Shown: positions 46,199-62,463 of the stretch, piece by piece
How positions within the stretch are numbered: the first letter of the stretch is position 1
Layout: each line of letters opens with the position of its first letter
NCBI RefSeq assembly: GCF_900091455.1
Contig: NZ_LT607412.1
Span: 2,046,001-2,110,000 of the forward strand
DNA: 64,000 nt
From: Micromonospora coriariae
GTDB taxonomy: Bacteria > Actinomycetota > Actinomycetes > Mycobacteriales > Micromonosporaceae
Direction of reading: 5' to 3'
Made by a program: the position numbers and the translations under genes
Notes under the pieces: model-generated
Seen by the model: the letters and a program-made list of their open reading frames with translations, nothing else
The model's database searches: none
Told to the model about the DNA's origin: nothing

Positions 46199-47374
46199 TC
46201 ATCCGGCGGGTTCGAAGACGGCCCGTACGCAGCCGTCGATCTTGTTCTTGAACATGTTGTAGCCCTGCGGAGCCTGGTCGAGCGGCATGGTGTGGGTCGC
46301 CAGGTGCTCGGTGACCAGTTCGTCCCGCGCCATCCGTTCGAGCAACATCGGAATGTAGCGGTGGCCGTGCTGCTGGGCGCCGCGCAGCGTGAGGCCCTTG
46401 TTCATCACCGCGCCGAGCGGGAACCTGTCCACCAGACCGGCGTAGGCACCGAGCAGGAACACGCTGCCACCCTTGCGGCAGTTGTGGATCGCGTCCCGGG
46501 CGGCGACCGGTCCGTCCGACTCCGGCCGCAACTGCTGCTTGATCTGGTCGTACCAGGATTGCGGGCCGGTGCTGTGCGAGTCCATCCCGACCGCCTCGAT
46601 GCACACGTCCGGCCCCCGCCCGCCGCTGCGTTCCAGCAGCTCGCCGCCCACATCGTGGCTCTGGTAGTTGAGGGTCTCCACCCCCAGGTGCGTCTCCGCC
46701 ATCCGTAGCCGGTCGTCGAAGCGGTCGATCACGACGACCCGCTCGGCGCCCAGCAGCACCGCTGCCCGCGCCGCCATCTGGCCCACCCCGCCGGCTCCCC
46801 ACACCGCCACCACGTCACCGGGCCGGACACCGCCCAGGTCGGCGCCCATCCACCCGGTGGGAGCGGCGTCGGAGGCGAACAGCGCACGCTCGTCGCTCAC
46901 CCCGTCCGGAACGGGAAACGCCCCCTGGTCCGCGTAGGGGACCCGGATGTACTCCGCATGACTGCCCGCGAAGCCGCCGAGGGCGTGGGAGTAGCCGTAG
47001 CAGCCGCCCGGTATCGGACCCCGGGCGCTCTCGGTGGCCGCCGGGTTGGTGTTGCCGTTGTCGCACAGCGAGAACTGCTGCTGCTGGCAGTACCAACAGC
47101 GCCCGCACGAGATGAACGAGCAGACCACCACCCGGTCGCCCACCCGGTGCTTACGCACCTGGGGGCCCACCTCGACCACCTCACCCAGGAACTCGTGGCC
47201 GAGGACGTCACCGCGCTCCATGAAGGGGATGTAGCCGCCCAGCAGGTGCAGGTCGGAGCCGCAGGTCACCGTCTTGCGCACCTGGATGATCGCGTCCTGC
47301 TCGTTGCGCAGCTGCGGCTCCGGCACCTGGGTCACCGCCAGTTCGTCGGCGCCCTGCCACACCAGTGCCTTCAC
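46199..47374 (-). CDS. Zinc-dependent alcohol dehydrogenase (FdhA-like)
   Basis: A 391-aa medium-chain dehydrogenase. Catalytic zinc ligands: CGSDLH (residues 38-43) and GHEF (59-62). The structural zinc lobe has SFISCGRCWYCQQQQFSLC (about 87-105). The cofactor motif is WGAGGVGQMAARAA. The insert at 265-290 (GMDSHSTGPQSWYDQIKQQL) matches glutathione-independent formaldehyde dehydrogenases and related enzymes. GGGAGGGG ribosome site. It converges with the HxlR gene and stands alone; the substrate may be an aldehyde or alcohol. Confidence 0.9.
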   Translation of the reverse strand: MKALVWQGADELAVTQVPEPQLRNEQDAIIQVRKTVTCGSDLHLLGGYIPFMERGDVLGHEFLGEVVEVGPQVRKHRVGDRVVVCSFISCGRCWYCQQQQFSLCDNGNTNPAATESARGPIPGGCYGYSHALGGFAGSHAEYIRVPYADQGAFPVPDGVSDERALFASDAAPTGWMGADLGGVRPGDVVAVWGAGGVGQMAARAAVLLGAERVVVIDRFDDRLRMAETHLGVETLNYQSHDVGGELLERSGGRGPDVCIEAVGMDSHSTGPQSWYDQIKQQLRPESDGPVAARDAIHNCRKGGSVFLLGAYAGLVDRFPLGAVMNKGLTLRGAQQHGHRYIPMLLERMARDELVTEHLATHTMPLDQAPQGYNMFKNKIDGCVRAVFEPAG

Positions 47375-47741: not shown

Positions 47742-49958
47742 TCAGAGAACGATCTGGTGCACCCGGTCGTCGACGCCGCGTACGGCCAGCCAGGCGCTGC
47801 CGTCGGCGCCGGCCGCGGCACCCGGTGCGCCCCGGAACGCGTCGGTGGCGAACTCGCCACGCCGGAACCAGCCGCCCCACGCCCCGTCGACCAGATTGCG
47901 CTGCCAGAGCCGGTTGTCGGCGGCCAGCGCGAAGAGGTAGACCCGTCCCTCGGTGGCGAGCAGGGTCGGGCTGCCGCTGGTGGTGCCGCCGAGGCTGGTC
48001 CAGGCCGACCAGGTGGTGCCGGTCCGGCTGCGCCACCACAACTCGTCGGTCCGGCTGCGCACCGCGACGTGCAGCACGCCGGCGTCGTCGACGACGGCAC
48101 TCGGCCGTCCGTAGATCGGCCGGTCCTCGGGTGCGCCGATGCCCGTCCAGCCGCTGTTCGGGGTACGCGAGAAGAGCTTGCCGTCGGCACCGCGGACGAT
48201 CAGCGTCCACCCGGTCGGGCTGGTCCAGGCCACCGTGGGCCCGTCGGTCACCGAGCCGCCGAGGCTGCGCCACGGCCCCCACTTCCCGGCGACGTAACTG
48301 CGCTGCCAGGCCGCGTTGTCGGTGCCCCGCACGAACACGTCGATCCGTCCGCCGGCGGAGCCGTACGCCGCCGGCTGGCCGAGGATCCGGCCGCCGACCG
48401 GGCCGCCGAGGGAGGTCCACCGGGTTCCCCAGGTCGCGCCCGAGCGGGTGTTCACCGCCAACGCGCCCTGCGTCGTGCGGACGAAGGCGGTGGCGTGCGT
48501 GTCGTCCACCCGGACCAGCGCGGGGCTGGCGCTGGCGGAGCCGCCGAGGCTGGCACCGGCGACCTGGTCGGCGCCGGTCAGGCCGAGCATGGCCACCCCG
48601 TGCGCCGGCACCTGGACGGTGTACGAGCCGGTGAACGGCTGGACCCCGGCCGTGCCGGGCTCGGCGTCGACGGTGGTGCGGGCCCACAGGTCGCGGACCG
48701 CGACCGGCCCGCCGAGCGCGACGTCCGCGAAGTTGACAGTGATCTCCTGGGCGGTGTCGTGCCGGTTCAACAGCGCGACCGCCCGCCGGCCGGAACCGGT
48801 GAGCACCTTGCTCCAGACCTGCGCGTCGACCCCGGTGTCAGCGACCTTGACACCCTGCCGGACCAGCCGGTCCTGGTTCACGGCGATGATCTCCGGATTG
48901 GTCAGCGCCGAGATCATCTCGCTGGGCAGACCGCGCGGGTCGGAGCCGATGACCAACGGAGCGGCCATGATGGACCACATGCCGAGCTGCGTCTTGGACT
49001 CATCCAGGCTCAGCTCGTACCCGCCGCCGGGCAGCGGACGCATCGGCAGCAGGTAGTCCGGGTCGTTGTAGTGACCCGGCCCGGTGGCCGCCGGGTGGTA
49101 CGCGTTGACGTCCATGTTGCGCAGCACCCAGGGGAACGCCCACTGCGGCGTCGGGTCGGTGAGCCCCACGTCGGTGTAGGTCCGCCAGGAGTCGGCCACG
49201 GTCGGCGCGTACGTGTAGGTCCAGGTGGAGAGCTGCTCCGGGGTGTACGGGCCGCCGCCCCAGTCGGAGCTGACCGGGTTGCAGATGTTGAGCAGCATCG
49301 GCCGGGGCGACTGGCGTACCGCGTCGGCGAGCTCGCGGAAGGTCGCCTCCGGGTCCAGGCCGGCGGCACGGCCGCAGAGCCAGTCAGCCTTGAGCGCGTC
49401 GAAACCCCAGCCGGCGAACTGGGCCACGTCGGCCCGGTAGTGGCCGTTGCTGCCCAGCCCACACTGCCCGGGCAGGTACGGCCCGGCGTCGGTGTAGATG
49501 CCGGCCTTCATCCCCTTGCTGTGGATGTACGCGGCCAGTGCGCCCATCCCGCCGGGGAACCGGGCAGAGTCGGCGACCAGCCGGCCGGCCTCGTCACGCG
49601 GGGTGGGCGCGGCCCAGTTGCCGTCGATCCAGACGTAGGTGTAGCCGGCGTCCCGCAGGCCGCTGCTGACCATGAAGTCGGTGACCGACCGGACCTCGGC
49701 CTCGGTGGGATCGCCACCGAGACCGAAGTAGGTGTTCCAGCCCTGGTAGGGCGTCGGGGCCAACCCGCTGTTGAAGAAGGTCGGCGCCCCCTGGTCCTCG
49801 GCGCCGGTGGCGGCCGGGGTGTGGCCGGGCCGGCCGTGGCCGTGGCCACCTGCCTGGGACGGATCGGCGTGCGGTGGACCGGCCGTGGCCGGCAGCGGGC
49901 CGACCAGGCCCAGGCCGAGCACGGCCAGGGCGACGGTCAGCGGTCGGATCAGGCGCAT
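47742..49958 (-). CDS. Secreted GH27 alpha-galactosidase with PLL-like C-terminal domain
   Basis: A 738-aa exported enzyme that releases galactose from alpha-galactosides. Signal peptide to about residue 26; a His/Gly-rich linker; the GH27 barrel (62-400) with the nucleophile in LKADWLCG (Asp192) and the acid/base in YNDPDYL (Asp301); and a beta-sandwich (400-465). Its last 270 residues (SLGG- and W-x-x-LG-repeats such as GPWRSLGG and SAWTSLGG) resemble the PLL-type propeller lectin found on actinobacterial hydrolases. GGAG 8 nt before the ATG; a longer frame upstream lies opposite GH36. It is last in the ABC operon. Confidence 0.93.
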   Translation of the reverse strand: MRLIRPLTVALAVLGLGLVGPLPATAGPPHADPSQAGGHGHGRPGHTPAATGAEDQGAPTFFNSGLAPTPYQGWNTYFGLGGDPTEAEVRSVTDFMVSSGLRDAGYTYVWIDGNWAAPTPRDEAGRLVADSARFPGGMGALAAYIHSKGMKAGIYTDAGPYLPGQCGLGSNGHYRADVAQFAGWGFDALKADWLCGRAAGLDPEATFRELADAVRQSPRPMLLNICNPVSSDWGGGPYTPEQLSTWTYTYAPTVADSWRTYTDVGLTDPTPQWAFPWVLRNMDVNAYHPAATGPGHYNDPDYLLPMRPLPGGGYELSLDESKTQLGMWSIMAAPLVIGSDPRGLPSEMISALTNPEIIAVNQDRLVRQGVKVADTGVDAQVWSKVLTGSGRRAVALLNRHDTAQEITVNFADVALGGPVAVRDLWARTTVDAEPGTAGVQPFTGSYTVQVPAHGVAMLGLTGADQVAGASLGGSASASPALVRVDDTHATAFVRTTQGALAVNTRSGATWGTRWTSLGGPVGGRILGQPAAYGSAGGRIDVFVRGTDNAAWQRSYVAGKWGPWRSLGGSVTDGPTVAWTSPTGWTLIVRGADGKLFSRTPNSGWTGIGAPEDRPIYGRPSAVVDDAGVLHVAVRSRTDELWWRSRTGTTWSAWTSLGGTTSGSPTLLATEGRVYLFALAADNRLWQRNLVDGAWGGWFRRGEFATDAFRGAPGAAAGADGSAWLAVRGVDDRVHQIVL

Positions 49959-50005
49959 GGGGGTACTCCTGTCCCTCGAGGGTGGGGTGCGGTGGTGCCC
50001 CGGCC

Positions 50006-52099
50006 TCAGTCGCGGCTCAGCACGATGAGGTCGGCGTCGTGGGTCGCGCTCCAGTGCACCGGCAGGCCGACCGAGCTGAGGTGGCTGCCGGAGTAGTGCC
50101 GGTCGCCGTGCCGGTAGCGGGCGGCCGGGTCGAGGCCCCGCAGCGGCAGCCGGACCGGGCGGGACGGGAGCAGGCCGGCGCCGTCGAGCCGGCCGGTGTG
50201 CCAGGCCAGCACGACCACGCGGCGCTCGTCCGGCGCGGTGTACTGCACCGCGCAGCGGGCCTGGTCGGGCCCGCCGATCAGGTGCGCCTCGCCGTACGTG
50301 ACGACGTCCCGGATCTCCTTGTACCTGGCGATCCAGCCGGCCGCCTCGGCCCGCTCGACGGCGGTCCAGGCCCGGATGTCCGCGCCGATGCCGAGCACGC
50401 CGGCCATCGCGAGCACGAACCGGAACGCCAGCGAGCGCGGACGCGGATCGAACAGGCCGGGCGCGTCGGTGACCCAGGAGCTGAGCAGGTGCGGTGCGTT
50501 GGCATGCAGGAAGCCGTACTGGATGGCCAGCCGGTCCAGCGGGCCGGTGTTGTCGCTGGGCCAGAACACGTCGGCCCGGGCGGCCATCGCCAGGTCGGTC
50601 CGCGCTCCCCCGCCGGCACACGCCTCGATCAGCACGCCGGGGTGGTCCCGGCGCAACCGGTCGTAGATCCGGTGCAGGTTGGTCACGTGCGCGCCGTCCA
50701 GGTCGAGCGGGCCGACCCCGTCCGGACGCCCCGGCTCGGTACGCGGCCGGTTGAAGTCCCACTTCAGGTAGTCGATGTCGTACCGACGGAGCAGATCATC
50801 CACTGTGGAGTGGACGAACTCTGCGACCTCCGGCCGGCCCAGGTCGAGCAGGTACTGGTTGCGTACGGGGGTGAGCGGACGGCCGTGCACGGCATAGACC
50901 CACTCCGGGTGCTCGGCGTAGAGCCGGGACCGTGGGTTGACGCACTCCGGCTCGACCCAGAGCCCGAAGTTGAGCCCGAGCGCGCGGACGTCGGCGATGA
51001 ACGCGTCGAACCCGGCCGGGAACTTCGCCGGATCCGGCGTCCAGTCGCCCAGCCCGGCGGTGTCGTCGTCGCGGCCGACGAACCAGCCGTCGTCCACCAC
51101 GAACGTCTCCACGCCCATCTCGGCGGCGATCTCGGCGAGCGCCAACTGGCTCTTCGCCTCGACAGCGAAGTAGGTGGCCTCCCACGAGTTGTAGAGCACC
51201 GGGCGCGGCGTCAGCCGCTCCCCGGCGAGCAGCCGCTGGTGGGTGTGCCAGACCCGGGCCAGGCCGTCCAGGCCGTCCAGGCTGTACGCCCCGGTGGCCA
51301 CCGGCAGCGTCAGTCGGTCGCCGGGGCCCAGCTCCAGCGGGCCGTCGACCAACTGGCGGCCGGCGCGGACCCGGGTCAGGCCGCCGGTGTCCCGCTCGGC
51401 GCTGATCTCCCACGAGCCGGTCCAGGCCAGCGCCATCGCCCAGGCCGGGCCGGTCGGCTCGGCGGCGTCCCGCACGGCCAGCCAGGGCACGTGCAGGTGC
51501 CCGGGCACGCCCTGCGCGCTGCCGATGGTGAACGTGCCGTGGCCCAGCTCGACGTGGGAGAGCTGGAACTCCTGTGCCCACTGCCCCCACTGGTGGCTGA
51601 GCAGCGCGCCGTGCGGTGTCGGCACGCAGAACCCGGCCGACCCGGCCCGGACGACCCGCAGTGAGCCGGTGCCGTCGTTGATCAGCTCGACCCACCGCTG
51701 CACCACGTCGGTCCCGGCGGGCACCCGGTAGTGCACGATGGCGCGCAGCCCGGTGACCGGGTCGGCGAAACCGACCGCCAGCTCCCGCTGGTCGGCGTCG
51801 ATCCGCACGTCGGTGTGGCCGAACCCCACCCGGCGCTCCCCGCTGGCGGTCTCCACCACCAGGTCGGCGCCGGTGAACGGCCGGTCGGCGTCGGTCGCGT
51901 ACTCGATCGGGGCGGCGTCCCCGGCGGTGAGGAACGGCACAGGGCCGTCGTAGGCGACCGGGGACGGGCCGTCGGACACGCCGTGCGGACCCCACGCGAC
52001 CAGCTCCAGCCAGCGGCCGTGCGCCGGCACGGTCACGGTGTACTCGGTGTGCGCGCCGCGCAGCGTCCAGCGCTGCCCGCCCGGCGCGGGGGCGGTCAC
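50006..52099 (-). CDS. GH36 alpha-galactosidase (intracellular)
   Basis: A 697-aa cytosolic alpha-galactosidase. The catalytic nucleophile is in DYLKWDFNR (Asp448) and the acid/base in FWPSDNTG (Asp516); the CAGGGARTD loop replaces the usual CSGGGG. N-terminal beta-super-sandwich (1-290) and C-terminal beta domain are both present. No signal peptide, so it hydrolyses imported oligosaccharides such as melibiose or raffinose. It starts with GTGA, overlapping the permease stop, and belongs to the ABC operon. Confidence 0.94.
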   Translation of the reverse strand: MTAPAPGGQRWTLRGAHTEYTVTVPAHGRWLELVAWGPHGVSDGPSPVAYDGPVPFLTAGDAAPIEYATDADRPFTGADLVVETASGERRVGFGHTDVRIDADQRELAVGFADPVTGLRAIVHYRVPAGTDVVQRWVELINDGTGSLRVVRAGSAGFCVPTPHGALLSHQWGQWAQEFQLSHVELGHGTFTIGSAQGVPGHLHVPWLAVRDAAEPTGPAWAMALAWTGSWEISAERDTGGLTRVRAGRQLVDGPLELGPGDRLTLPVATGAYSLDGLDGLARVWHTHQRLLAGERLTPRPVLYNSWEATYFAVEAKSQLALAEIAAEMGVETFVVDDGWFVGRDDDTAGLGDWTPDPAKFPAGFDAFIADVRALGLNFGLWVEPECVNPRSRLYAEHPEWVYAVHGRPLTPVRNQYLLDLGRPEVAEFVHSTVDDLLRRYDIDYLKWDFNRPRTEPGRPDGVGPLDLDGAHVTNLHRIYDRLRRDHPGVLIEACAGGGARTDLAMAARADVFWPSDNTGPLDRLAIQYGFLHANAPHLLSSWVTDAPGLFDPRPRSLAFRFVLAMAGVLGIGADIRAWTAVERAEAAGWIARYKEIRDVVTYGEAHLIGGPDQARCAVQYTAPDERRVVVLAWHTGRLDGAGLLPSRPVRLPLRGLDPAARYRHGDRHYSGSHLSSVGLPVHWSATHDADLIVLSRD

Positions 52100-52917
52100 T
52101 TGACCGCCCCGAGCGCCAGGCCGGAGACGAAGTGCCGCTGGAAGCGCAGGAAGACCGCGACGGTGGGGACGGCCGCGATGACCGTGCCGGCGGCGATGAC
52201 ATTCCAGGACGAGACGAACTGCCCCTGGAGGCCGAGCAGCGCCGGGGTGACCGGCATGTTGTCGTCGGTACGCAGCACGGTGATCGCCCAGAGCAGGTCG
52301 TTGAAGATCCAGGTGAAGGAGAGCGCCCCGAGCGCGGCCAGCGCGGGCCTGGTCAGCGGCAGCATCACCCGGGTGAAGATCTGCGCCGTGCCGGCGCCGT
52401 CGATCGTGGCCGCCTCCTGGATCTCACCCGGCAGGTCCCGCATGAAGCCGTGCAGGACGAAGGTGTAGAAGCCGAGCCCGAAGCCGACCTGTACCGCGAT
52501 CAGCGCCCACAGCGTGTCGTACAGGCCGGTCAGCTCGCTGAACTTGGACACCGGGATGAGCAGGATCTGCGGTGGCAGCAGGTTGCCGGCGAGCATCAGC
52601 AGCAGGATTGTCCGCCGGCCGGGGATCCGGAAGCGGCTCAGCGCGAACGCGGCCATCGCGGCCAGACCCAGGCTCAGCGCCACCGACGGGATGGTGACCA
52701 GCATGCTGTTGATGAGGGCGCGCAGCTCGCCGCCGTCGGTCCACGCCTGCCGGTAGGTGTCCAGCGTGAACGAGCGGGGCAGGCTGCCGACCCCGTGCGC
52801 GGCGATGTCGTCGAACGACCGGGTGGACATCACCACGACCCAGAGCACCGGCCCGAGCCAGAGCAGCGAGAGCAGGATCATTCCGGTGTGGAAGGCCCCG
52901 GTGCGGAGCTTGTTCAT
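52096..52917 (-). CDS. Carbohydrate ABC transporter permease (MalG-type)
   Basis: A 273-aa, six-helix permease of the CUT1 family. The EAA loop GEIQEAATIDGAGTAQIFTRVMLPLTRPA (near residues 180-208) is intact for the ATPase contact. ATG overlaps the stop of the first permease as TGATG. A GTG start of GH36 overlaps its end. The ATPase (MsiK-type) is not encoded here; in actinobacteria one shared MsiK serves many such systems. Confidence 0.93.
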   Translation of the reverse strand: MNKLRTGAFHTGMILLSLLWLGPVLWVVVMSTRSFDDIAAHGVGSLPRSFTLDTYRQAWTDGGELRALINSMLVTIPSVALSLGLAAMAAFALSRFRIPGRRTILLLMLAGNLLPPQILLIPVSKFSELTGLYDTLWALIAVQVGFGLGFYTFVLHGFMRDLPGEIQEAATIDGAGTAQIFTRVMLPLTRPALAALGALSFTWIFNDLLWAITVLRTDDNMPVTPALLGLQGQFVSSWNVIAAGTVIAAVPTVAVFLRFQRHFVSGLALGAVK

Positions 52918-53834
52918 CACGCTTCCTCCCGGAACGCGCGGACCAGGTAGCCGAGGATGACCGCCAGCGCCAGCACGAAGATCACGACGGCGATCGCGGA
53001 GGCGTAGCCCAGCCGCAGGCCCTGGAACGCTGTCGAGTACATGTAGGTGCTCAGCAGCTCCGACGAGTGGTACGGCCCGCCCTTGGTGAGCGACCACACG
53101 ATGTCGAACGAGCGCAGCGAGTCGATCACGATGACCGAGAGCACGACCGCGTTGACCCCCTTGAGCTGGGGGATGGTCACGTGCCGCAACCGCTGCCACG
53201 AGTTGGCGCCGTCCATCCGGGCCGCCTCGTGCAGCGCCGGGTCGATCGCCTTCAGCCCGGCCAGGAACAGCACCATCACGTAGCCGATCTGCCGCCACAG
53301 CGCGGGCAGGATCACCGCGTACAGCGCGGTCTGCGGGTCGGCGAGCCAGGGCCGGATCAGCTGCTCCAGGCCGATGGCCCGCAGCAGCGTGTCGGCGATC
53401 CCGTCGGGTTGGTAGAAGACCCGCCAGACCAGCGCGGTCACCACCAGCGAGAAGACCACCGGGGTGAACAGCGCGGCCCGGTAGAAGCCGACCCCGCGTC
53501 GCTCCTTCTGCAGGACCAGCGCCATGCCGAAGCCGCCCAGCACGGAGAGGCCGCCGAAGAGGACCAGCCAGATCACCGTGTTGAGCAGCGCGCCCCGGAA
53601 GGTGGCATCGCCAGCCATCTCCACGTAGTTGTCGACGCCGACGAAGGTGGGCGGCGACATGCCGTCCCAGCGGGTGAGGGAGAACCAGAAACCCTGGACC
53701 GCCGGCCAGAAGACCCAGACGCTCTCGACCAGGAACGGCACGAGGACGAACGCCACCAGCAGCGGCGACAGTCGGGCCGACCGTCGCCGCCGCCGGGTGG
53801 GGGTGACCGAAGTCGTGGAGATCGTTGCTGTCAC
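52917..53834 (-). CDS. Carbohydrate ABC transporter permease (MalF-type)
   Basis: A 305-aa permease with about six helices and a longer N-terminus than the second permease, as in MalF types. The EAA motif is LHEAARMDGANSWQRLRHVTIPQLK (near residues 203-227). It starts with a GTG one base after the stop of the binding-protein gene. It pairs with the next gene product to form the membrane channel of an alpha-galactoside importer. Confidence 0.93.
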   Translation of the reverse strand: MTATISTTSVTPTRRRRRSARLSPLLVAFVLVPFLVESVWVFWPAVQGFWFSLTRWDGMSPPTFVGVDNYVEMAGDATFRGALLNTVIWLVLFGGLSVLGGFGMALVLQKERRGVGFYRAALFTPVVFSLVVTALVWRVFYQPDGIADTLLRAIGLEQLIRPWLADPQTALYAVILPALWRQIGYVMVLFLAGLKAIDPALHEAARMDGANSWQRLRHVTIPQLKGVNAVVLSVIVIDSLRSFDIVWSLTKGGPYHSSELLSTYMYSTAFQGLRLGYASAIAVVIFVLALAVILGYLVRAFREEA

Positions 53835-53835
53835 G

Positions 53836-55131
53836 TCAGCCCTTGAAGACCTTCTCGGCGCTGCTCTGCCACTCCCGCAGGATCGCGTCGATCTGGTCCG
53901 GCTTGTCCATGAACTTGGTCAGCGCGGTGTCCGCGGTCGGCTGGAGCGCGTCGCTGGAGTCGCGGTTGAAGAACTGGGTCAGCTCCTTGGCCTCGTCGAG
54001 CATCGCCTTGCCCTTGACCACCAGCGGCGAGTCGGATGCCTTGGCCTTCGGGTTGGCCGGCAGCACGATGCCGGAGCTGGCCTTGACGTACGCCTCCTGC
54101 GCCTCGACGCCGGCCAGGTAGGTGAGCAGAGCCTTGGTGCCGGTGGGGTTGGCGGTCTTCGCGCTGGCGAAGAAGCCGTCGGTCGGGGCCTCCTCGGCCA
54201 GCGGCACCGCCGGGTCGATGATCGGGAACCGGAAGAAGTCCAGGTCGCCGAGAGCATCCTTGGGCGCCGCGTCGGCGAAGAAGGTGCCGATCAGGAACAT
54301 GCCGGTCTTGCCGGCCAGCAGGGCGGTGGTCGCCTCCTGGAACGGGTACGCCTTGCCCTTGGGGTCGAAGTAGGGCAGGGCCTCGCGCCAGCGGGTGAAG
54401 ACCGCCTTGACCTTGGGGTCGTCGAAGCGCTGCTTGCCGGCGAGCAGCTCGCGGTGGAACGGGGCGCCGTTGATCCGGATGTTGAGGTAGTCGAACCAGG
54501 CGGACGCCACCCACGGGGTGTCGCCGAGACCGATGCCGATGGGCGGAATGCCCTTGCTCTTCAGCGTCTCGCACAGCGCCAGGAACTCGGTCCAGGTCTT
54601 CGGCTCCTGCACGCCCCACTTGGCGAAGTTGGACTTGCGGTAGAAGAAGCCCCACCAGTAGTTGTTCATCGGCACGAAGACCTGCTTGCCGCTGGCGTCG
54701 GCGGAGAGGGTGCGCAGCGACTGGGGGTAGTCGCCCAGCGACTTCCAGACGTCGGAGACGTCCAGCAGGAGGTTGCGGCTGGCGTAGTCGTTGGCGACCG
54801 AGCCCGCGTACCAGGTGTAGAGGTCCGGCGGGTTGGCCGAGGTCAGGTACGTCGGCAGCTGGGTCCGGAAGGTCTCCGAGGCGATCGTGTTGAGGCTCGC
54901 CGTGCCCTTGCCCTGCGCGTTGAAGTTCGCGATCAGCTTCTCCATCGCCGCCTTGGCCTGCGGCGAGGAGAGATTGGACTGGATGGTGACCGCGCCGGAG
55001 CCGTTGCCCGCCGTCGGCCCGCTCGCGGAGCTGGCGCACGCGCTGAGGAACGAGCTGGCGCCGAGGGCGCCCAGGCCGGCGAGCCCGAGGTGGCCAAGGA
55101 ATCGCCGGCGACCGGGGTCGAAGTCGCTCAC
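53836..55131 (-). CDS. Sugar-binding lipoprotein (ABC transporter)
   Basis: A 431-aa extracellular solute-binding protein, family 1. It has a Tat-type signal, RRRFLGHLGLAGLGAL, ending with a lipobox (LSAC), so the mature protein is lipid-anchored after export in folded form. Typical binding-domain pieces: ANFNAQGKG, PPDLYTWYAG, ALLAGKTGMFLIGTF and the C-terminal DKPDQIDAILREWQ. The GTG at 55131 has GGAAGGA 8 nt upstream. It is the first gene of the ABC/alpha-galactosidase operon and divergent from the galactose-oxidation operon; ligand probably melibiose- or raffinose-type sugars, by context. Confidence 0.92.
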   Translation of the reverse strand: MSDFDPGRRRFLGHLGLAGLGALGASSFLSACASSASGPTAGNGSGAVTIQSNLSSPQAKAAMEKLIANFNAQGKGTASLNTIASETFRTQLPTYLTSANPPDLYTWYAGSVANDYASRNLLLDVSDVWKSLGDYPQSLRTLSADASGKQVFVPMNNYWWGFFYRKSNFAKWGVQEPKTWTEFLALCETLKSKGIPPIGIGLGDTPWVASAWFDYLNIRINGAPFHRELLAGKQRFDDPKVKAVFTRWREALPYFDPKGKAYPFQEATTALLAGKTGMFLIGTFFADAAPKDALGDLDFFRFPIIDPAVPLAEEAPTDGFFASAKTANPTGTKALLTYLAGVEAQEAYVKASSGIVLPANPKAKASDSPLVVKGKAMLDEAKELTQFFNRDSSDALQPTADTALTKFMDKPDQIDAILREWQSSAEKVFKG

Positions 55132-55230
55132 GGGGGGTGTCCTTCCTCTACGACACGTAGCGTCACGGCGCAATGTGTCGGCCATGTGAATGGTGTGACC
55201 AGAAGGTTGCATCGGCCCTCGGCGGCTGTC

Positions 55231-55265
55231 AAGATATCTTCGTAATTAATGATTAGATGAGATCA
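55231..55265. promoter_or_regulatory. Probable shared operator/promoter of the two galactose operons
   Basis: An A/T-rich patch in the 147-bp divergent gap holds AAGATATCTT (perfect palindrome, 55231-55240), TAATTA and TGAT-N8-ATCA (55250-55265). The GntR/FadR regulator encoded at 56075 is the likely ligand. Inference from position and symmetry. Confidence 0.5.
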
Positions 55266-55278
55266 AGGCGAGGGTCAG

Positions 55279-56037
55279 GTGGATCAGCTTATGCGCCGGC
55301 TTGAGGGCAAGAACGCGCTGGTCACCGGCGCGATGGGCGGGATCGGCCAAGCCATCGCCCGACGGCTCGCCGCCGAGGGAGCGACAGTCGCGCTGTTCGA
55401 CGTGGCCGATTCGACCCCGCTGGCCGACGAGCTGACCGCCCGGGGCGATCGAGCACTGTCCGTAGTGGGCGATGTCAGCGACGAGGCCGACTGGTCGGCC
55501 GCCGTGGCGGCGGTGCACGGCAGCCTCGGCCCGGTGGACATCCTGGTCAGCACCGCGTACGCGGTGCAGGTCGCCCCGGCACACGAGACCAGCCGACAGT
55601 CCTGGGACCACCAGCTCGGGGTCAGCCTCACCGGCTCGTTCCTCGGCGTACGCGCCTGCCTGGACGACCTGCGGGCACGCGCCGGCGCGGTGGTGCTGAT
55701 CTCCTCGGTGCACGCGCTGGTCGGGCTGCCCGGCCGGCCCGCGTACGCCGCGGCCAAGGGCGGCCTCGTCGCGCTCGGCCGCCAGCTCGCCGTGGAGTAC
55801 GGCCCGCAGGTGCGGGTCAACACCGTGCTGCCCGGGCCGATCCTCACCGGCGCCTGGGCCGAGGTGTCCGAAGAGGACCGCCGACGCAGCGTCGCGGAGA
55901 CCGTGGCGAAGCGGTTCGGCACGCCGGACGAGGTGGCCGCGACGGTGGCCTTCCTCGCCTCACCGGACGCCGCCTACGTCACCGGCGCGAGCCTGGTGGT
56001 GGACGGTGGCTGGACAGCGGTGAAAGCCTCGGCCTGA
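55279..56037 (+). CDS. SDR family dehydrogenase, probable D-galactose 1-dehydrogenase
   Basis: A 252-aa classical SDR: TGAMGGIGQAIA (residues 16-27), the catalytic Ser in ISSVHALVG and YAAAKGG (Tyr and Lys near 155-159), and VVDGGWTA at the end. The Asp in LFDVAD after the second strand favours NAD+. The NNAG motif is missing (VSTAYA). By context it oxidises galactose to galactonolactone as the first De Ley-Doudoroff step; a galactonate or related alcohol is the alternative. GTG 55279 or ATG 55291 could start it. First gene of the plus operon. Confidence 0.87.
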   Translation: MDQLMRRLEGKNALVTGAMGGIGQAIARRLAAEGATVALFDVADSTPLADELTARGDRALSVVGDVSDEADWSAAVAAVHGSLGPVDILVSTAYAVQVAPAHETSRQSWDHQLGVSLTGSFLGVRACLDDLRARAGAVVLISSVHALVGLPGRPAYAAAKGGLVALGRQLAVEYGPQVRVNTVLPGPILTGAWAEVSEEDRRRSVAETVAKRFGTPDEVAATVAFLASPDAAYVTGASLVVDGGWTAVKASA

Positions 56038-56074
56038 GAGATCGATACCGACCAGCGAGAAGGCCAGGAGAGCA

Positions 56075-56785
56075 TTGGCACAGTACGCACGCCGCGGCGT
56101 CCACGGGCAGACCGTCGAAGCCATCGCCCGCCGCATCCTCACCGGTGAGATCCCCGCCGGGGCGACCCTGAACATCGTCGCGCTGCAGGAGGAGTTCGAC
56201 GTCAGCCTGACGGCGCTGCGCGAGGCGCTCAAGGTCCTCTCGGCCAAGGGCATCGTCGACGCCCGGCAGAAGCGCGGCACGTTCGTCCGGCCGCGGGCGG
56301 ACTGGAACCTGCTCGACGGTGACGTGATCCGCTGGCAGTTCGCCGAGGGCCCCCACGAGCGCCTGCTCGACCAGCTGCACGAGGTACGCGCCATCATCGA
56401 GCCGGCCGCCGCACGGCTGGCCGCCAGCCGGGCCACCGAGGATGACATCGCCGCGCTCGACCGGGCGCTGGTCGAGATGGCCGAGGCCAACGGCGATCCC
56501 GCCGCAGCCGTCGCCGCCGACCTCTCCTTCCACCGCGCGCTGCTCGCCGCCACCCACAACGAGCTGCTGGAGCGCATGGAGGTGGTGATGGAGACCGGGC
56601 TCGCCGAGCGGGACCGGCTGGTGCACGGCGGCGCGCCGCACGACGACCCGGTGCCCAGCCACCGCGCGGTGGTCGACGCGCTGCGCGCACGCGACGAGAC
56701 GGCGACCGAGACCGCCATGCGTGAGTTGCTGGACAAGGCCGTCCGGGACGTCGAGAAGGCACGGGGACAGAGGGGCAGTCAGTGA
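56075..56785 (+). CDS. GntR/FadR-type regulator (DgoR-like)
   Basis: A 236-aa regulator. The N-terminal winged helix covers residues 5-75 (TVEAIARRILTGEIPAGATLNIVALQEEFDVSLTALREALKVLSAKGIVDARQKRGTFV), and the C-terminal FCD all-helical domain (90-230) carries metal ligands in DLSFHRALLAATHN and PSHRAVVDAL. FCD domains bind small organic acids. By context the effector is galactonate or KDGal, as with DgoR. Start is a TTG 6 nt after AGGAG. The stop overlaps dgoD (GTGA). It is likely to control both divergent operons. Confidence 0.9.
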   Translation: MAQYARRGVHGQTVEAIARRILTGEIPAGATLNIVALQEEFDVSLTALREALKVLSAKGIVDARQKRGTFVRPRADWNLLDGDVIRWQFAEGPHERLLDQLHEVRAIIEPAAARLAASRATEDDIAALDRALVEMAEANGDPAAAVAADLSFHRALLAATHNELLERMEVVMETGLAERDRLVHGGAPHDDPVPSHRAVVDALRARDETATETAMRELLDKAVRDVEKARGQRGSQ

Positions 56786-57927
56786 AGATCGAGCGGATCG
56801 AGACCTTCCTGGTCGCGCCACGGTGGTTGTTCTGCCGGGTGGAGACCGACGACGGGCTGGTCGGGTGGGGTGAGCCCGTGGTCGAGGGGCGTGCCGAGGT
56901 GGTGCGCAGCGCGGTCGAGGTGCTCTCCGAATACCTGATCGGCGAGGATCCGCTCCGGATCGAGCAGCACTGGCAGGTGCTCACCAAGGGCGGCTTCTAC
57001 CGCGGCGGTCCGATCCTCTCCAGCGCGGTCGCCGGCCTCGACCAGGCGCTCTGGGACATCGCCGGGCAGGCGTACGGGGCCCCCGTGCACGCGCTGCTCG
57101 GTGGGGCCGTGCGGGACCGGGTGCGGATCTACTCCTGGATCGGCGGGGACGAGCCCGACGAGGTGGCCGACGCCGCCGCCGCGCAGGCCGCCGCCGGTCT
57201 CACCGGGGTCAAGATGAACGCCTGCGGTCGGCTCTCCGCCATCCCCACCTCCGCCGAGGTGGACGCGGTGGTCGGTCGGGTCGCCGCCGCCCGGGAGGTG
57301 CTCGGCCCCGACCGGGACATCGCACTGGACTTCCACGGCCGGGCCGGGCTGGCCGCGATACGCCGGATCCTGCCCGAGCTGGCCCCCCTGCGTCCCTTCT
57401 TCGTGGAGGAACCGGTCCTGCCCGACCAGGCCCACCACCTGCGCGACATCGTCGCCGGCACGCCGATCCCGGTGGCCACCGGGGAACGGCTCTACGGCCG
57501 CTCCGAGTTCCTCGGCCCGTTGCAGGCCGGGGTCGCCGTGGTGCAGCCGGACCTGTCGCACGCCGGCGGGATCTCCGAGGTGCGCCGGATCGCGGCACTG
57601 GCCGAGACGTACGGCGCGTTGCTGGCCCCGCACTGCCCGCTCGGCCCGATCTCGCTGGCGGCCAGCCTCCAGGTGGCCTTCGCGACGCCGAACTTCCTGA
57701 TCCAGGAGCAGAGCATCGGCATCCACTACCACTCCGGCTCGGAGCTGCTGGACTACCTGGTCGACCCGGAGCCGTTCCGGTTCGTGGACGGGCACATCGC
57801 CCGGCCCGACCGGCCCGGGCTGGGCATCACCGTGGACGAGGCGGCGGTGCGGCAGGCCGCCCGTACCCCGCACGCCTGGCGAAACCCGGTCTGGCAGCAC
57901 CGCGACGGGTCGTTCGCCGAATGGTGA
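56782..57927 (+). CDS. dgoD: D-galactonate dehydratase
   Basis: A 381-aa enolase-superfamily enzyme that turns D-galactonate into 2-keto-3-deoxygalactonate. The opening ETFLVAPRWLFCRVETDDGL and VGWGEPVVEGRAEVV agree closely with E. coli DgoD as I recall it. Metal ligands are in ALDFHGR (Asp, His), FFVEEP (Glu) and ATGERL (Glu), and the general-base His in APHCPLGP. The usual mobile-loop segment GGFYRGGPI is present. GTG start overlaps the regulator stop; the stop overlaps the mutarotase start. Confidence 0.95.
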   Translation: MKIERIETFLVAPRWLFCRVETDDGLVGWGEPVVEGRAEVVRSAVEVLSEYLIGEDPLRIEQHWQVLTKGGFYRGGPILSSAVAGLDQALWDIAGQAYGAPVHALLGGAVRDRVRIYSWIGGDEPDEVADAAAAQAAAGLTGVKMNACGRLSAIPTSAEVDAVVGRVAAAREVLGPDRDIALDFHGRAGLAAIRRILPELAPLRPFFVEEPVLPDQAHHLRDIVAGTPIPVATGERLYGRSEFLGPLQAGVAVVQPDLSHAGGISEVRRIAALAETYGALLAPHCPLGPISLAASLQVAFATPNFLIQEQSIGIHYHSGSELLDYLVDPEPFRFVDGHIARPDRPGLGITVDEAAVRQAARTPHAWRNPVWQHRDGSFAEW

Positions 57928-58769
57928 CCGGAGCGGCCGGGCCCGTGCCGGTGCCGCTGCGGGTGGCGTACGACCCGACGCGCGGCGGCCGGTGGACCAG
58001 CCTGCGCGGCGGCGGCCGGGAGTGGCTCTGGCGGGGGCCGGAGCCCGGCCGGCACGAGGTACGCCCCGGCGCCGCGTTCATCGACGCCGGAGGGCTGGAG
58101 GAGTGCCTGCCCACAGTGCGTGGTCGGCCCGACCACGGCGAGGTGTGGTCCCGGCCCTGGCGGACAGCCGGTCCCGGCACGGTGGTCATCGAGCGCCCCG
58201 CGTTCACGTTGACCCGCCGGATCACCGAGCGGAACGGCGTTGTGGTGGCCGACTACCGGCTGGCCGCTGAGCCCGGCCACCGATTCGTGTGGGCGGCGCA
58301 CGCCCTGTTCGACCTCACCGAGGGGGCCCGTCTCGACGCACCCGCCGGCACCCTCACCCGGCTGCACCCGGAGGCCGCCGCGCTGTTGCCCCCGGGCACC
58401 TGGCCCGCCGGCAGCCCCTGGCTGACCGGCCCCTGGCCGGCACCGGCCGGGCTGACGCTGGATACGCTGGGCCCGGACGACGGGACCGCGCTCGGCGCCG
58501 TGCTGCTCGACTGCCCCCGCGTTCAGGTCACCGACGGCACCGACCGGCTGACGCTTGAGCTGGAGTGCGCCGGCCAGCCCCGCAGCACCGCGCTCTGGCG
58601 CAACCTGGGCGGCTGGCCCGCCACCACGCCCTACCGCAGTATCGGTGTCGAGCCGATGCTCGGCGCCGCCTTCGACCTGGCCGATGCCGGGTCGTCCGAC
58701 GCGGCGGTCGTCCCGCCCGCCGGTGAGGTCGCCTGGCGGCTCACCATCTCCGCCCACCGCTTCCACTGA
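57921..58769 (+). CDS. Aldose 1-epimerase-like (mutarotase fold) protein
   Basis: A 282-aa all-beta protein of the galactose mutarotase-like superfamily. Visible features are GRWTSLRGGGREWLWRG (residues 22-38), DAGGLEECLPTV and the central HALFDLTEGARL with the C-terminal SIGVEPMLG. The usual active-site His pair of GalM is not clear, so it may be a divergent epimerase. By place in the operon it would speed anomer exchange of galactose for the dehydrogenase. It overlaps dgoD by 7 nt. Function is inference. Confidence 0.7.
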   Translation: MVTGAAGPVPVPLRVAYDPTRGGRWTSLRGGGREWLWRGPEPGRHEVRPGAAFIDAGGLEECLPTVRGRPDHGEVWSRPWRTAGPGTVVIERPAFTLTRRITERNGVVVADYRLAAEPGHRFVWAAHALFDLTEGARLDAPAGTLTRLHPEAAALLPPGTWPAGSPWLTGPWPAPAGLTLDTLGPDDGTALGAVLLDCPRVQVTDGTDRLTLELECAGQPRSTALWRNLGGWPATTPYRSIGVEPMLGAAFDLADAGSSDAAVVPPAGEVAWRLTISAHRFH

Positions 58770-58780
58770 GGACGATCGCG

Positions 58781-59404
58781 ATGAACCTGCTCGACGAGTT
58801 GCGCACCCACCGACTGCTGGCCATCGTGCGCGGCCCCGACCCGGCCGCCGCGCTGTCGGCGGTGCTCACCCTCGCCGAGAGCGGCGTCGCGCTGGTCGAG
58901 GTCTCACTGACCGGGGCCGACGCGCTCGGCACCATCCGACGCGCCCGAGCCGCCCTCGGGCCCGACTTCGCCCTGGGCGCGGGCACCGTGCTCAGCGTCG
59001 AGGACGCCCGCGCGGCGGCCGACGCCGGCGCCGGGTTCCTGGTCACCCCGGCGGTGGCGCCGAGCGTCACCGAGGGCGGCCGGCTCGGGCTGCCGGTGCT
59101 GGCCGGCGCGCTCACCCCCAGCGAGGTGGTGCAGGCCAACAACGCGGGAGCCGCAGCGATCAAGCTCTTCCCGGCGGGCTCGATGGGCGGGCCCGACTAC
59201 CTCGGCGCGCTGCGCGACCCGTTCCCCGGCACCGCGTTCGTGCCGGTCGGCGGGGTCGACGCCGACGGCGCACGGCGCTACCTCGACCGTGGGGCCGTCG
59301 CGGTCGGCGTCGGCTCCCCGCTGCTCGGCGACGCCGTCCGCGGCGGCGACCCGGCGGCGCTGCGCGAGCGCGCCGCAGTCTTCCTGACGGCGGTCCGGCC
59401 GTGA
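58781..59404 (+). CDS. dgoA: 2-dehydro-3-deoxy-6-phosphogalactonate aldolase
   Basis: A 207-aa class I aldolase of the KDPG/KDPGal type that splits KDPGal into pyruvate and glyceraldehyde 3-phosphate. The Schiff-base lysine is in AAIKLFPAG (near residue 127), the phosphate-binding loop is PVGGVDADG, and the N-terminal IVRGPDPAAA is typical. The acid/base Glu is in LVEVSLTGADAL. The ATG lies 11 bp after the mutarotase gene; its stop overlaps the kinase start. Confidence 0.93.
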   Translation: MNLLDELRTHRLLAIVRGPDPAAALSAVLTLAESGVALVEVSLTGADALGTIRRARAALGPDFALGAGTVLSVEDARAAADAGAGFLVTPAVAPSVTEGGRLGLPVLAGALTPSEVVQANNAGAAAIKLFPAGSMGGPDYLGALRDPFPGTAFVPVGGVDADGARRYLDRGAVAVGVGSPLLGDAVRGGDPAALRERAAVFLTAVRP

Positions 59405-60342
59405 CCGACCTGCTCACCCTCGGCGAGACGATGGCGGCCTTCCGCACCACCGGTCCCCTGCGGCTGGGCGGCACCGCCGGGATCTCGGTCGCCGGGTCCG
59501 AGTCGACAGTGGCCATCGGCCTGGCCCGGCTCGGCCACCGGGCCGCCTGGGTCGGGGTCACCGGCGCCGACGAGCCCGGCGAGCTGGTCCGCCGCACACT
59601 GCGCGCCGAGGGCGTCGACCTGACCTGGTCCCGGGTGGACCCGACGGCCCCGACCGGACTGATCCTCTTCGAGTCCCGGGTCGCCGACATCAACCGGGTC
59701 ACCTACCACCGCACCGGGTCGGCCGGTTCCCGGCTGCGCTCCGCCGACGTCACCCCCGCCTTCGACCCGTCCCGGCCACCGCCCCGGCTGCTGCACATCA
59801 CCGGCATCACCTGCGCGCTGGGCGCCGAGCCGTACCAGGCCGTCGTGGCGGCCGTACGACTCGCCCGCACGGCGGGCAGCACCGTCTGCCTGGACGTCAA
59901 CCACCGGCACCGGCTCTGGTCGGTCGCCGAGGCCGGTGCCGCGCTACGGCCGCTGCTGCCGTCGGTCGACCTGGTGGTCGCCTCCGACGACGAGCTGGCC
60001 GTGCTGACCGACGCCGCCGACCCCGTCGCGGACCTGCTGGCGGCCGGCGTGACCGAGGTCGTGGTGAAGCACGGCGCCGACGGAGCGACCAGCCACAGCG
60101 CGGACGGCACAGTGCACCGGCCCGCCCGCACGGTGCCGGTGGTGGACACCGTCGGCGCCGGCGACGCCTTCGTGGCCGGTCTGCTCTCCGCCTGGCTGGA
60201 CGGGGCCGACGCGCCGGCCCGGCTGGACCGGGCGGTCACCACCGGCGCGTTCGCGGTGGCCACCCGGGGTGACTGGGAGGGCCTGCCCGACCGGGCCGAG
60301 CTGACGCTGCTCGACCACGGCCCCGGCGGCACCGTGCGCTGA
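59401..60342 (+). CDS. PfkB-family sugar kinase (KDG/KDGal kinase)
   Basis: A 313-aa ribokinase-fold kinase. The PfkB signature is DTVGAGDAFVAGLLSAWLDG (near 246-265, catalytic Asp in GAGD), and the substrate lid is near GGTAGISVAGSESTVAIGLARLG. The family phosphorylates 2-keto-3-deoxygluconate and similar acids, so with DgoD and DgoA it should phosphorylate 2-keto-3-deoxygalactonate. E. coli uses the unrelated DgoK for this. GTG start overlaps the dgoA stop. Substrate from context. Confidence 0.9.
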   Translation: MTDLLTLGETMAAFRTTGPLRLGGTAGISVAGSESTVAIGLARLGHRAAWVGVTGADEPGELVRRTLRAEGVDLTWSRVDPTAPTGLILFESRVADINRVTYHRTGSAGSRLRSADVTPAFDPSRPPPRLLHITGITCALGAEPYQAVVAAVRLARTAGSTVCLDVNHRHRLWSVAEAGAALRPLLPSVDLVVASDDELAVLTDAADPVADLLAAGVTEVVVKHGADGATSHSADGTVHRPARTVPVVDTVGAGDAFVAGLLSAWLDGADAPARLDRAVTTGAFAVATRGDWEGLPDRAELTLLDHGPGGTVR

Positions 60343-60371
60343 CCACCGGGACGGATCTTTGAAGGAGCGAA

Positions 60372-61256
60372 ATGGAGCTGACCGAACCGACCGTGTGGAG
60401 CGCCGACCGGTTGGAGCTGGGCGAGGGGCTACGCTGGGTGGCCGACCGGCTGGTCCTGGTCGACCTGCTGGCCGGTCGGCTGCTGGAGACCGCCGGCGAC
60501 CGGCGCGGCCCGCTGCGGGAGCTGCGCCGGCTTGACGTCCCATTGGGCGCGGTCGCCCCGGTGGCCGGCAGTCCCGGCGGCTGGCTCGCCGCCGCCGGCA
60601 CCGGCGTCGCGCTGCTGCCCGCCACCGGTGACCCCCGACCGGTCGCCGACCTGGTCTCCGGCGGACCCGAGCCGGCCCGGATGAACGACGCTGTCGCCGA
60701 CCCGCACGGCCGGTTCTGGGCGGGCAGCATGACGTACGCCGCGGTGCCCGGTGGGGGCACGCTGTACCGGCTGGCTCCCGGCGCGGCCCCGGTGCCGGCC
60801 GTGACCGGTTTGACGGTGCCGAACGGCCCGGCCTTCGACGCCGCCGGCACCACCATGTACCTGGCCGACTCGCCGCGCGGCGAGGTCGATCGGTTCCGCG
60901 TCGACCCGCACACCGGCGCACTGCACGGGCGGGAGCCGTTCCTGCGGCTGACCACCGCCGAAGGCGGCCCGGACGGGATGACGGTCGACGCGGCAGGTCA
61001 CCTCTGGGTCGCGCTGTGGGGCGGCTCGGCCGTGCGCCGCTACCGACCGGACGGCACGCTGGACCGGGAGATCCGGCTGCCGGCGACGCAGCCGGCCGGC
61101 ATCTGCCTGGGTGGCCCGGACCTGCGCCGGCTCTTCATCGGCACCGCCCGGTACGGGCTCGCGCCGGCCGGACCGCTGGACGGCGCGCTGCTCGCGGTGG
61201 ACGTCCCGGTCCCCGGCCTGCCCACCGCGCTCGCCGCCGCGCCCGACGTCAGCTGA
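60372..61256 (+). CDS. SMP-30/gluconolactonase family lactonase
   Basis: A 294-aa six-bladed beta-propeller lactonase. Metal-binding residues occur in the usual order: Glu in LGEGLRW (near 18), Asn in ARMNDAV (near 104), Asn in TVPNGPAF (near 151) and Asp in GGPDGMTVD (near 202). In this operon it would hydrolyse galactono-1,4-lactone made by the dehydrogenase, giving galactonate. GAAGGAG 6 nt before the ATG. It is the last gene of the plus operon, or co-transcribed with the next. Confidence 0.9.
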   Translation: MELTEPTVWSADRLELGEGLRWVADRLVLVDLLAGRLLETAGDRRGPLRELRRLDVPLGAVAPVAGSPGGWLAAAGTGVALLPATGDPRPVADLVSGGPEPARMNDAVADPHGRFWAGSMTYAAVPGGGTLYRLAPGAAPVPAVTGLTVPNGPAFDAAGTTMYLADSPRGEVDRFRVDPHTGALHGREPFLRLTTAEGGPDGMTVDAAGHLWVALWGGSAVRRYRPDGTLDREIRLPATQPAGICLGGPDLRRLFIGTARYGLAPAGPLDGALLAVDVPVPGLPTALAAAPDVS

Positions 61257-61359: not shown

Positions 61360-62463
61360 ATGAACGGGCCGGTCGGCGACGAGCCGCTCGGCGAGCTGGA
61401 GCTGGTGCACACCTTCACCGGCGCGATGCCGACCGGGGTGAGCGTCTCGCACCGGGGCCGGATCTTCGTCAACTTCCCCAAGTGGGGTGACGAGGTGCCG
61501 GCCACCGTCGTCGAGCTGCGCGACGGCCGGGAGGTGCCCTACCCCGACCAGCCGTGGAACGACCCGTCGGGCGATGACGACGCGGACGCGTTCGTCTCGG
61601 TGCAGAGCATCGTGGTGGACCCGGCCGACCGGCTCTGGGTGCTGGACACCGGCAGCCCGATGTTCCAGCCGACGAAGCCGGGCGGGCCGAAGCTGGTCCG
61701 GATCGATCTGGACACCGACATGGTGGCCCAGGTGATCACCTTTCCGCCGGACGTGGCGCTGCCCACGACGTACCTCAACGACGTCCGCTTCGACCTGCGG
61801 CGGGGCGAGTCGGGGGTCGCGTACATCACCGACTCGGCGAGCACGGGGCCGAACGGGATCATCGTGGTGGACCTGGCCAGTGGGGCCTCCTGGCGGCGGC
61901 TGCACGACCACCCGTCGACGAAGGCGGAGCCGCTGACAACGTTCCGCCCGGTGGTCGAGGGCCGGCCCTTCCTCGAGCGGCCGGCGGACGGGCCACCGAA
62001 ACCCGTGTCGATGGGCGCCGACGGCATCGCCATCTCGGCCGACGGCACCCGGTTGCACTACTGCCCGCTGGCGTCCCGGCGCTGGTACAGCGTGTCCACC
62101 GAGGCGCTGGCCGACCCGGCGGTCACCCAGGAGGCGGTCGCGGCGACCGTGGTCGACGAGGGTGACAAGGGCACCGCGTCCGACGGGCTGGAGACCGACG
62201 ACGCCGGGCGGCTCTACCTGACCTCGTACGAGCACAACGCGGTGCTGCGCCGGCGGCCGGACGGCGAGTACGAGACCCTGGTCCACGACCCTCGACTGCT
62301 CTGGCCGGACACCATGTCGGTGGCCGCCGACGGGCACCTCTACGTGACAGCCAACCAGCTGCACCGGCAACCGCAGTACCAGCGGGGGCAGGACCTGCGG
62401 CGCCGACCGTACGCGCTGTTCCGCACCCGGATCGACGCCGGGCCGGTGCTCCTGCGCCGCTGA
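61360..62463 (+). CDS. Major royal jelly/L-dopachrome tautomerase-related protein
   Basis: A 367-aa protein of the MRJP/Yellow type, a six-bladed propeller distantly related to SMP-30. Typical segments are SVSHRGRIFVNFPKWGDEVPATV (residues 28-50), WVLDTGSP, YLNDVRFDLRRGESG and YVTANQLHR at the end. Known bacterial members are poorly understood. It lies after the lactonase in the same direction, 103 bp on, so it may be a second lactonase or tautomerase. Start ATG 61360; GTG 61351 is an alternative. Confidence 0.78.
   Translation: MNGPVGDEPLGELELVHTFTGAMPTGVSVSHRGRIFVNFPKWGDEVPATVVELRDGREVPYPDQPWNDPSGDDDADAFVSVQSIVVDPADRLWVLDTGSPMFQPTKPGGPKLVRIDLDTDMVAQVITFPPDVALPTTYLNDVRFDLRRGESGVAYITDSASTGPNGIIVVDLASGASWRRLHDHPSTKAEPLTTFRPVVEGRPFLERPADGPPKPVSMGADGIAISADGTRLHYCPLASRRWYSVSTEALADPAVTQEAVAATVVDEGDKGTASDGLETDDAGRLYLTSYEHNAVLRRRPDGEYETLVHDPRLLWPDTMSVAADGHLYVTANQLHRQPQYQRGQDLRRRPYALFRTRIDAGPVLLRR

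Follow-up and report, generated by a model that had tools for sequence, protein, structure and literature searches.

Does the cluster of twelve genes at 47742..61256 of the window, by which we mean the whole 64,000-nucleotide stretch of Micromonospora coriariae DNA analysed here (contig NZ_LT607412.1, positions 2,046,001 to 2,110,000), form a single route from alpha-galactosides to pyruvate, as a preliminary description had proposed? We consider it probable that the locus is a catabolic unit in which imported alpha-galactosides feed the De Ley–Doudoroff pathway of galactose oxidation. Our confidence in this reading was lowered very slightly because of Thr-type aldolases in some related loci and a looser linkage of the gene for the secreted glycosidase of glycoside hydrolase family 27 (GH27). 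Searches of an open-licence library listed no paper evidently devoted to a locus of this kind. Its parts are mostly known, and it is their arrangement for which no description was found in that literature; the new lead of the locus is the GH27 enzyme with Gly at its specificity position.

Gene set and predicted pathway

The same gene set recurs in other genera, and its grouping is therefore not due to chance. The sample consisted of the best 80 of at least 566 confirmed places of the galactonate dehydratase gene (DgoD), chosen by DgoD similarity, and a gene was counted when a tblastn match covered at least half of the window protein. By this rule the GntR regulator is present in 71 loci, the short-chain dehydrogenase/reductase (SDR) in 65, the kinase in 55, the aldolase and the importer in 53 each, the family 36 glycosidase (GH36) in 50, the mutarotase-like gene in 49, GH27 in 42 and the lactonase in 28. 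Eleven genes, the lactonase not being required, occur together in 35 of the 80 loci and all twelve in 18; the recurring set is found in Micromonospora, Streptomyces, Kribbella and Actinoplanes. Every one of the 50 GH36 loci carries the importer, which occurs without GH36 in three; GH27 is never present without GH36, and eight loci have GH36 without a half-length GH27 (partial in locus L049). A tally by identity alone gave 43 loci for GH27, 51 for GH36, 51 for the mutarotase-like gene, 54 for the kinase, 30 for the lactonase and 36 for the eleven genes. The half-length rule excluded, among others, a 67-residue GH36 match (L040) and the partial GH27; the kinase count rises from 54 to 55 because the identity-only tally also required a stop codon inside the locus. 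Absence of a gene is weak evidence in the eleven loci shorter than 21 kb, and a low identity limit (33%) was applied to the aldolase and the kinase; 14 of the 35 eleven-gene loci have one of these two below 40 per cent. By DgoD identity, the ten nearest named loci are from Micromonospora strains (94–98%). The divergent layout is found in the Micromonospora, Catellatospora, Kribbella and Actinoplanes-type loci, and in the full-set Streptomyces loci the genes all run in one direction. The locus is a conserved unit in actinobacteria.

Open reading frames lie at all twelve places where the preliminary description had put genes (table 1). Pfam and NCBIfam models assign eleven of them; the twelfth, mutarotase-like, has no Pfam match and was placed by its fold. 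The GH36 frame overlaps the adjacent permease frame by 4 bases, the plus-strand genes are tightly packed, and two operons pointing away from each other seem a fair description. The importer corresponds, as described, to a lipoprotein (SBP_bac_1, with a longer start possible at 55212) and two permeases (both BPD_transp_1). No ATPase gene of the ATP-binding cassette (ABC) type was identified within the locus beside them; the OB_MalK ATPase domain has four matches elsewhere in the genome, which is a single contig of 6.93 Mb.

Importer, GH36, SDR, GntR and DgoD stand together in 49 of the 80 loci, in line with the earlier view of importer, GH36 and oxidative genes as one system. This count bears on a different reading, in which the oxidative operon serves mainly external D-galactonate or galactonolactone and the glycosidase–importer operon next to it supplies the Leloir pathway. 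Such a division would fit the galK- and galT-family genes of the genome, the absence of the importer from 27 of the 80 loci, the published actinobacterial dgo clusters for galactonate (PMC5719810, PMC2991359, as far as their accessible parts go) and a gene of the major facilitator superfamily (MFS) near the locus, at 43952-45529. The MFS protein was rejected as a DgoT candidate, its identity to E. coli DgoT being just 18 per cent over 179 residues (E 0.002, single comparison), and there is no transporter among the identified plus-operon genes. Moreover, importer, GH36 and oxidative genes are co-directional in the full-set Streptomyces loci, and the use of galactonate needs neither a mutarotase nor a dehydrogenase. 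We judge this reading very unlikely.

Among the enzymes, the identification of DgoD is firm as judged by sequence: it scores 577.9 bits against the galactonate dehydratase model NF010624 (cut-off 311), is 51 per cent identical to E. coli DgoD and has as its best PDB match 3rr1, a putative D-galactonate dehydratase. The assignment of the aldolase as DgoA-like agrees with the E. coli references. The enzyme is 34 per cent identical to DgoA and 30 per cent to Eda, and its PVGGV motif has Val, as in DgoA (AVGGV), and not the Thr of Eda (PTGGI). We take this position to matter for stereochemistry; Val is kept in 49 of 53 homologues and replaced by Thr in four. The cytosolic GH36 alpha-galactosidase of the preliminary description stands. 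It has the Glyco_hydro_36N, Melibiase and 36C domains in 50006-52099 (Pfam), aligns over residues 92–681 of 697 with the solved AgaB, and retains an Asp–Asp pair, presumably galactose-binding, together with the nucleophile and acid/base Asp residues that we take as the catalytic pair; these are kept in 50 of 51 aligned rows, the remaining one being gapped.

The mutarotase-like product (282 residues) has no match to a Pfam model or a PDB sequence at E values up to 10. Its structure, predicted from 23 relatives (mean predicted local distance difference test, pLDDT, 82.7; predicted template modelling score, pTM, 0.84), matches in fold Slr1438 (E 2.3e-9, 15% identity), a putative aldose 1-epimerase (8.9e-9) and several galactose mutarotases. 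The residues H72, H127 and E244, which we take to fit the mutarotase catalytic set, are among those invariant in 23 aligned sequences. On this model the earlier assignment as mutarotase-like is well supported.

In the SDR, S143, Y156 and K160 are kept in 65 of 65 homologues and D41 in 64, with one gapped; this Asp is presumably that of NAD users. Naming the enzyme from NCBIfam was given up, all 25 matches listed (of 226) being under their cut-offs, and its sequence does not decide the substrate. The kinase is nearest to the kinases of 2-keto-3-deoxygluconate (KDG) and 2-keto-3-deoxygalactonate (KDGal). No similarity to E. coli DgoK was found by alignment; if the proposed pathway is right, KDGal would be phosphorylated here by a kinase of another family.

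In the proposed mechanism, the lectin-domain GH27 enzyme would trim a galactose-like residue off a larger glycan outside the cell, and the importer, using an ATPase encoded elsewhere, would take up alpha-galactosides for cleavage by the cytosolic GH36. The mutarotase-like protein would convert the freed galactose to the required anomer, which the SDR would oxidise to galactonolactone and the SGL lactonase would open; DgoD would then dehydrate galactonate to KDGal, and the PfkB kinase and the DgoA-like aldolase would convert this, through phosphorylation, to pyruvate and glyceraldehyde 3-phosphate. From an intergenic site, the GntR/FCD protein is predicted to repress both operons until a pathway acid binds. 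We infer the substrates, their order of use, the operator function, the repression and the effector; melibiose and raffinose would presumably be natural substrates. A candidate gene assigned by family model or fold is available for every step, as had been claimed. The description of the system as complete goes too far, since it passes over the ATPase, for which no gene was identified in the locus, and over the genes of the galK and galT families elsewhere in the genome.

Table 1. Genes of the locus and candidate operator, with window coordinates.
Feature	Position	Strand	Basis
GH27 glycosidase, predicted secreted, Gly at specificity position, C-terminal PLL-lectin-like domain	47742..49958	-	Pfam; PDB matches in sequence and fold
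GH36 alpha-galactosidase, no signal peptide by eye	50006..52099	-	Pfam, AgaB/AgaA alignment
ABC sugar permease 2	52096..52917	-	Pfam BPD_transp_1; ATG at 52917
ABC sugar permease 1	52917..53834	-	Pfam BPD_transp_1
Substrate-binding lipoprotein, RRRFLG ... LSAC by eye	53836..55131	-	Pfam SBP_bac_1
Candidate operator TTCGTAATTAATGAT	55239..55253		Divergent intergenic region between substrate-binding protein and SDR genes
SDR, candidate NAD+-dependent D-galactose 1-dehydrogenase	55279..56037	+	Pfam
GntR/FCD regulator, DgoR relative	56075..56785	+	Pfam, E. coli DgoR alignment
DgoD, D-galactonate dehydratase	56782..57927	+	NF010624, E. coli DgoD alignment, PDB
Galactose mutarotase-like protein, no Pfam match	57921..58769	+	Predicted fold
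DgoA-like aldolase of 2-keto-3-deoxy-6-phosphogalactonate (KDPGal), Eda family, Val156	58781..59404	+	Pfam KDPG/KHG aldolase PF01081
PfkB-family 2-keto-3-deoxy-sugar-acid kinase, putative KDGal kinase	59401..60342	+	PfkB (Pfam)
SMP-30/SGL-family lactonase candidate	60372..61256	+	Pfam PF08450

Two further genes border the cluster. A gene of the Major-royal-jelly/Yellow family lies immediately 3' of the lactonase (about 61360-62463, plus strand); such a gene also follows the cluster in 10 of 13 Micromonospora loci, one of the remaining three being cut short. A zinc-dependent alcohol-dehydrogenase-family gene (46199-47374, minus strand) lies immediately downstream of GH27; it is at the same place in L009, and in the other Micromonospora loci the 10 kb flank stops about there. 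A second DgoD, 69 per cent identical, was found in locus L006 (9280-10428, minus strand; own genome C1:5277282-5278418). It lies between an ABC sugar importer and a further dehydratase of the mandelate-racemase family, which is accompanied by a small AAA-domain protein, perhaps a kinase; by its gene content this region appears to be a second sugar-acid locus.

The secreted GH27 glycosidase

The GH27 open frame covers 1006 codons and is longer than the likely gene. The true start is likely the ATG at 49958, which is followed by a signal-peptide-like stretch and gives a protein of 738 amino acids; the secretion signal was judged by eye from the N-terminus. Melibiase_2 and Melibiase_C domains are present within 47742-50762 (Pfam), and this is the only Melibiase_2 match in the genome. 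Both catalytic Asp residues of the family are retained in the alignment. The C-terminal third resembles PLL lectins in PDB sequence and fold matches; PF26607 is present in most of the database relatives of the protein, among the matches listed.

According to the accessible parts of two papers, the residue that follows a conserved Asp is itself Asp in GH27 alpha-galactosidases; beta-L-arabinopyranosidases have Glu, Ile or Tyr there, and two fungal enzymes of flexible specificity have Cys (PMC4598101, PMC5853685). The residue does not wholly set specificity (PMC5853685). In the window protein it is Gly. The preliminary description had called the enzyme an alpha-galactosidase, a name that Pfam alone might also suggest; the name was rejected, as a GH27 sequence with Gly in place of Asp does not support it. 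Naming it a beta-L-arabinopyranosidase after its best PDB match in both sequence and fold, Streptomyces avermitilis 3A21, was ruled out by the same column. In the five best solved relatives the position is occupied by Glu, Asp, Asp, Asp and Asp.

The Gly is conserved. In an alignment of 44 loci and the window, L049 is gapped at the position and the other 43 homologues from DgoD loci all have Gly. Of the best 120 of 1517 database matches, 119 have a residue at this position, and it is Gly in every one. In a class-wide control (29 loci, L099–L127), 26 open frames were scored, none of them from L116, L118 or L121; seven were weak GH36-like frames (below 25 bits, all Asp) and were left out, and the remaining 19 have Asp in 16 cases and Ser, Ile and Gly in one each, the sole Gly frame being of the cluster type. 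The Ser and Ile belong to GH27-like proteins of other class members (L114 and L115).

The match to 3A21 suggests another reading, in which the locus serves an arabinogalactan rich in L-arabinopyranose or a different sugar of galactose configuration (L-arabinose, D-fucose); SDR and GH27 would act on that sugar, and DgoD and DgoA would be promiscuous. L-Arabinose and D-galactose have the same configuration at C1–C4, which makes such a substrate conceivable. However, Gly would leave space at C6 and thus speaks against a pure arabinopyranosidase; the GH36 retains its alpha-galactosidase residues, and a kinase with a KDPGal-type aldolase suits a six-carbon acid. In the characterised beta-L-arabinopyranosidases described in the accessible parts of the literature, the position is filled by a bulky residue, Glu, Ile or Tyr (PMC4598101, PMC5853685), and not by Gly. 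We regard this reading as quite improbable.

An open C6 pocket may instead point to a modified or 6-substituted galactosyl glycan as the material degraded, an explanation that overlaps the proposed pathway and differs from it in the outside substrate. The constancy of Gly in the homologues and its occurrence in the class-wide control only in a frame of the cluster type, the retained catalytic Asp residues and the lectin-like domain would all agree with it. Against it, specificity is reported not to be settled completely by this single residue (PMC5853685, in its accessible part); we hold it to be unlikely. In a more specific form, which is a speculative and unlikely proposal, the enzyme would belong to an uncharacterised Gly-type clade with its -1 pocket open past C6 and would free 6-substituted galactose or alpha-1,6-galactobiose from longer chains, for uptake by the importer and splitting by GH36 before oxidation. 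The release of isomaltose by the GH27 isomaltodextranase offers an analogy; the structure of that enzyme is absent from the sequence matches and the fifty fold matches listed for the window protein. An ordinary, a weakened or a widened galactosidase would all be compatible with the sequence. The Gly-type GH27 provides a clear test case for the residue used in predicting GH27 specificity.

Regulator and candidate operator

The regulator is 35 per cent identical to E. coli DgoR and was compared at the metal triad and galactonate-contact residues of that protein (PMC7674646, in its accessible part). D146, H150, H195, R102 and R179 (DgoR numbering) are kept in it and in 71 of 71 homologues. The window protein departs from DgoR at the ligand contacts W181, D184, T191, S221 and R224. 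The commonest residues among the homologues are Arg at the first of these (56 of 71), His at the second (70), Pro at the third (68), Ala at S221 (67, with Ser kept in four) and Asp at R224 (69); the alignment is less sure around these contacts, and Q173 could not be placed. Because five contacts differ and the metal triad is kept, the effector is not necessarily D-galactonate; it is likely a metal-held acid and may be another one.

A candidate operator, TTCGTAATTAATGAT or a close form of it, lies between the substrate-binding protein and SDR genes in 22 of 30 divergent loci. Seven Kribbella-type loci have instead the palindrome TTCGTAAATTACGA(G/T) in the intergenic region; one or the other string is present in 29 of the 30, L070 being the exception. 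The 13-base core occurs once in the 6.93 Mb genome at up to one mismatch, at window position 55240. Sites of the FadR subfamily mostly have 3 nucleotides between GT and AC (PMC4494728, in its accessible part), and the Kribbella-type palindrome has 5. With a weight matrix, no operator of the Micromonospora type was found with confidence in the full-set Streptomyces loci; some of these have weaker AT-rich matches upstream of the GH27 or substrate-binding protein gene. The matrix was seeded from sites that it later scored, and its scores are not independent; the intergenic strings were read directly. A good match is present at about 9109 in L048, a Streptomyces locus that lacks the importer set; it lies 91 bases upstream of the GntR gene.

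Strength of the reading and comparison with known systems

Several observations weigh against an alpha-galactoside-fed De Ley–Doudoroff unit. The absence of the galactose-type Asp from GH27, the altered contacts of the regulator and of most or nearly all of its homologues and the 5-nucleotide spacing of the Kribbella-type palindrome are among them, as is the presence of close relatives among the 80 DgoD loci. The SDR resembles many dehydrogenases, with its listed NCBIfam matches all below cut-off; the NCBIfam matches of the aldolase and the best one of the kinase (NF040938) are also below their cut-offs. In L022, L025, L026 and L062 the best aldolase match is of the Thr type (33–42% identity), and three of these four are Actinoplanes-type loci with the gene near DgoD, which counts against a uniform DgoA. 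The kinase matches in many Streptomyces loci are only 34–43 per cent identical and may represent another PfkB group. The same genome has a galactokinase-domain match (at 1.97 Mb) and a match to the galT family (at 3.59 Mb); the locus thus need not be the sole galactose route, and galactose may also be used through the Leloir pathway.

The linkage of GH27 belongs here as well. In an even family sample of 121 genomes, DgoD has a match (1e-120) in 45 and GH27 (1e-100) in 14, all of them within the 45 (hypergeometric 2e-7, relatedness not corrected). The two genes are at most 20 kb apart in only 5 of the 14 (G000, G211, G156, G178 and G221); in the other nine the GH27 match is of about half identity and lies elsewhere or on another contig. 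If the proposed pathway is correct, a wide range of soil actinobacteria would link the uptake of alpha-galactosides directly to an oxidative route for galactose.

In the De Ley–Doudoroff pathway of pseudomonads and rhizobia, galactose is converted through galactonate, KDGal and KDPGal to pyruvate and glyceraldehyde 3-phosphate. The steps predicted for the locus are the same, but here, in Actinomycetes, the gene order joins them to an alpha-galactoside importer and two glycoside hydrolase genes. The locus shares with the E. coli dgo operon (dgoR, dgoK, dgoA, dgoD, dgoT) the dehydratase, the Val-type aldolase and the DgoR relative, at the identities given above. E. coli imports galactonate by DgoT, according to its annotation, and uses DgoK; the locus has a PfkB kinase and adds genes for an importer, glycosidases, SDR, mutarotase and lactonase. 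Arthrobacter arilaitensis and Brevibacterium also carry actinobacterial dgo genes, in clusters for D-galactonate, but these have galactonate importers and a named KDGal kinase, and the accessible parts of the two reports describe neither galactosidases nor a galactose dehydrogenase (PMC2991359, PMC5719810). The Arthrobacter set is reported there as acquired and closest to Gram-negatives. SaArap27A (PDB 3A21), a GH27 beta-L-arabinopyranosidase, is the nearest known relative of the catalytic part of the window GH27 in sequence and fold, and differs from it at the specificity position, where it has Glu and the window enzyme Gly.

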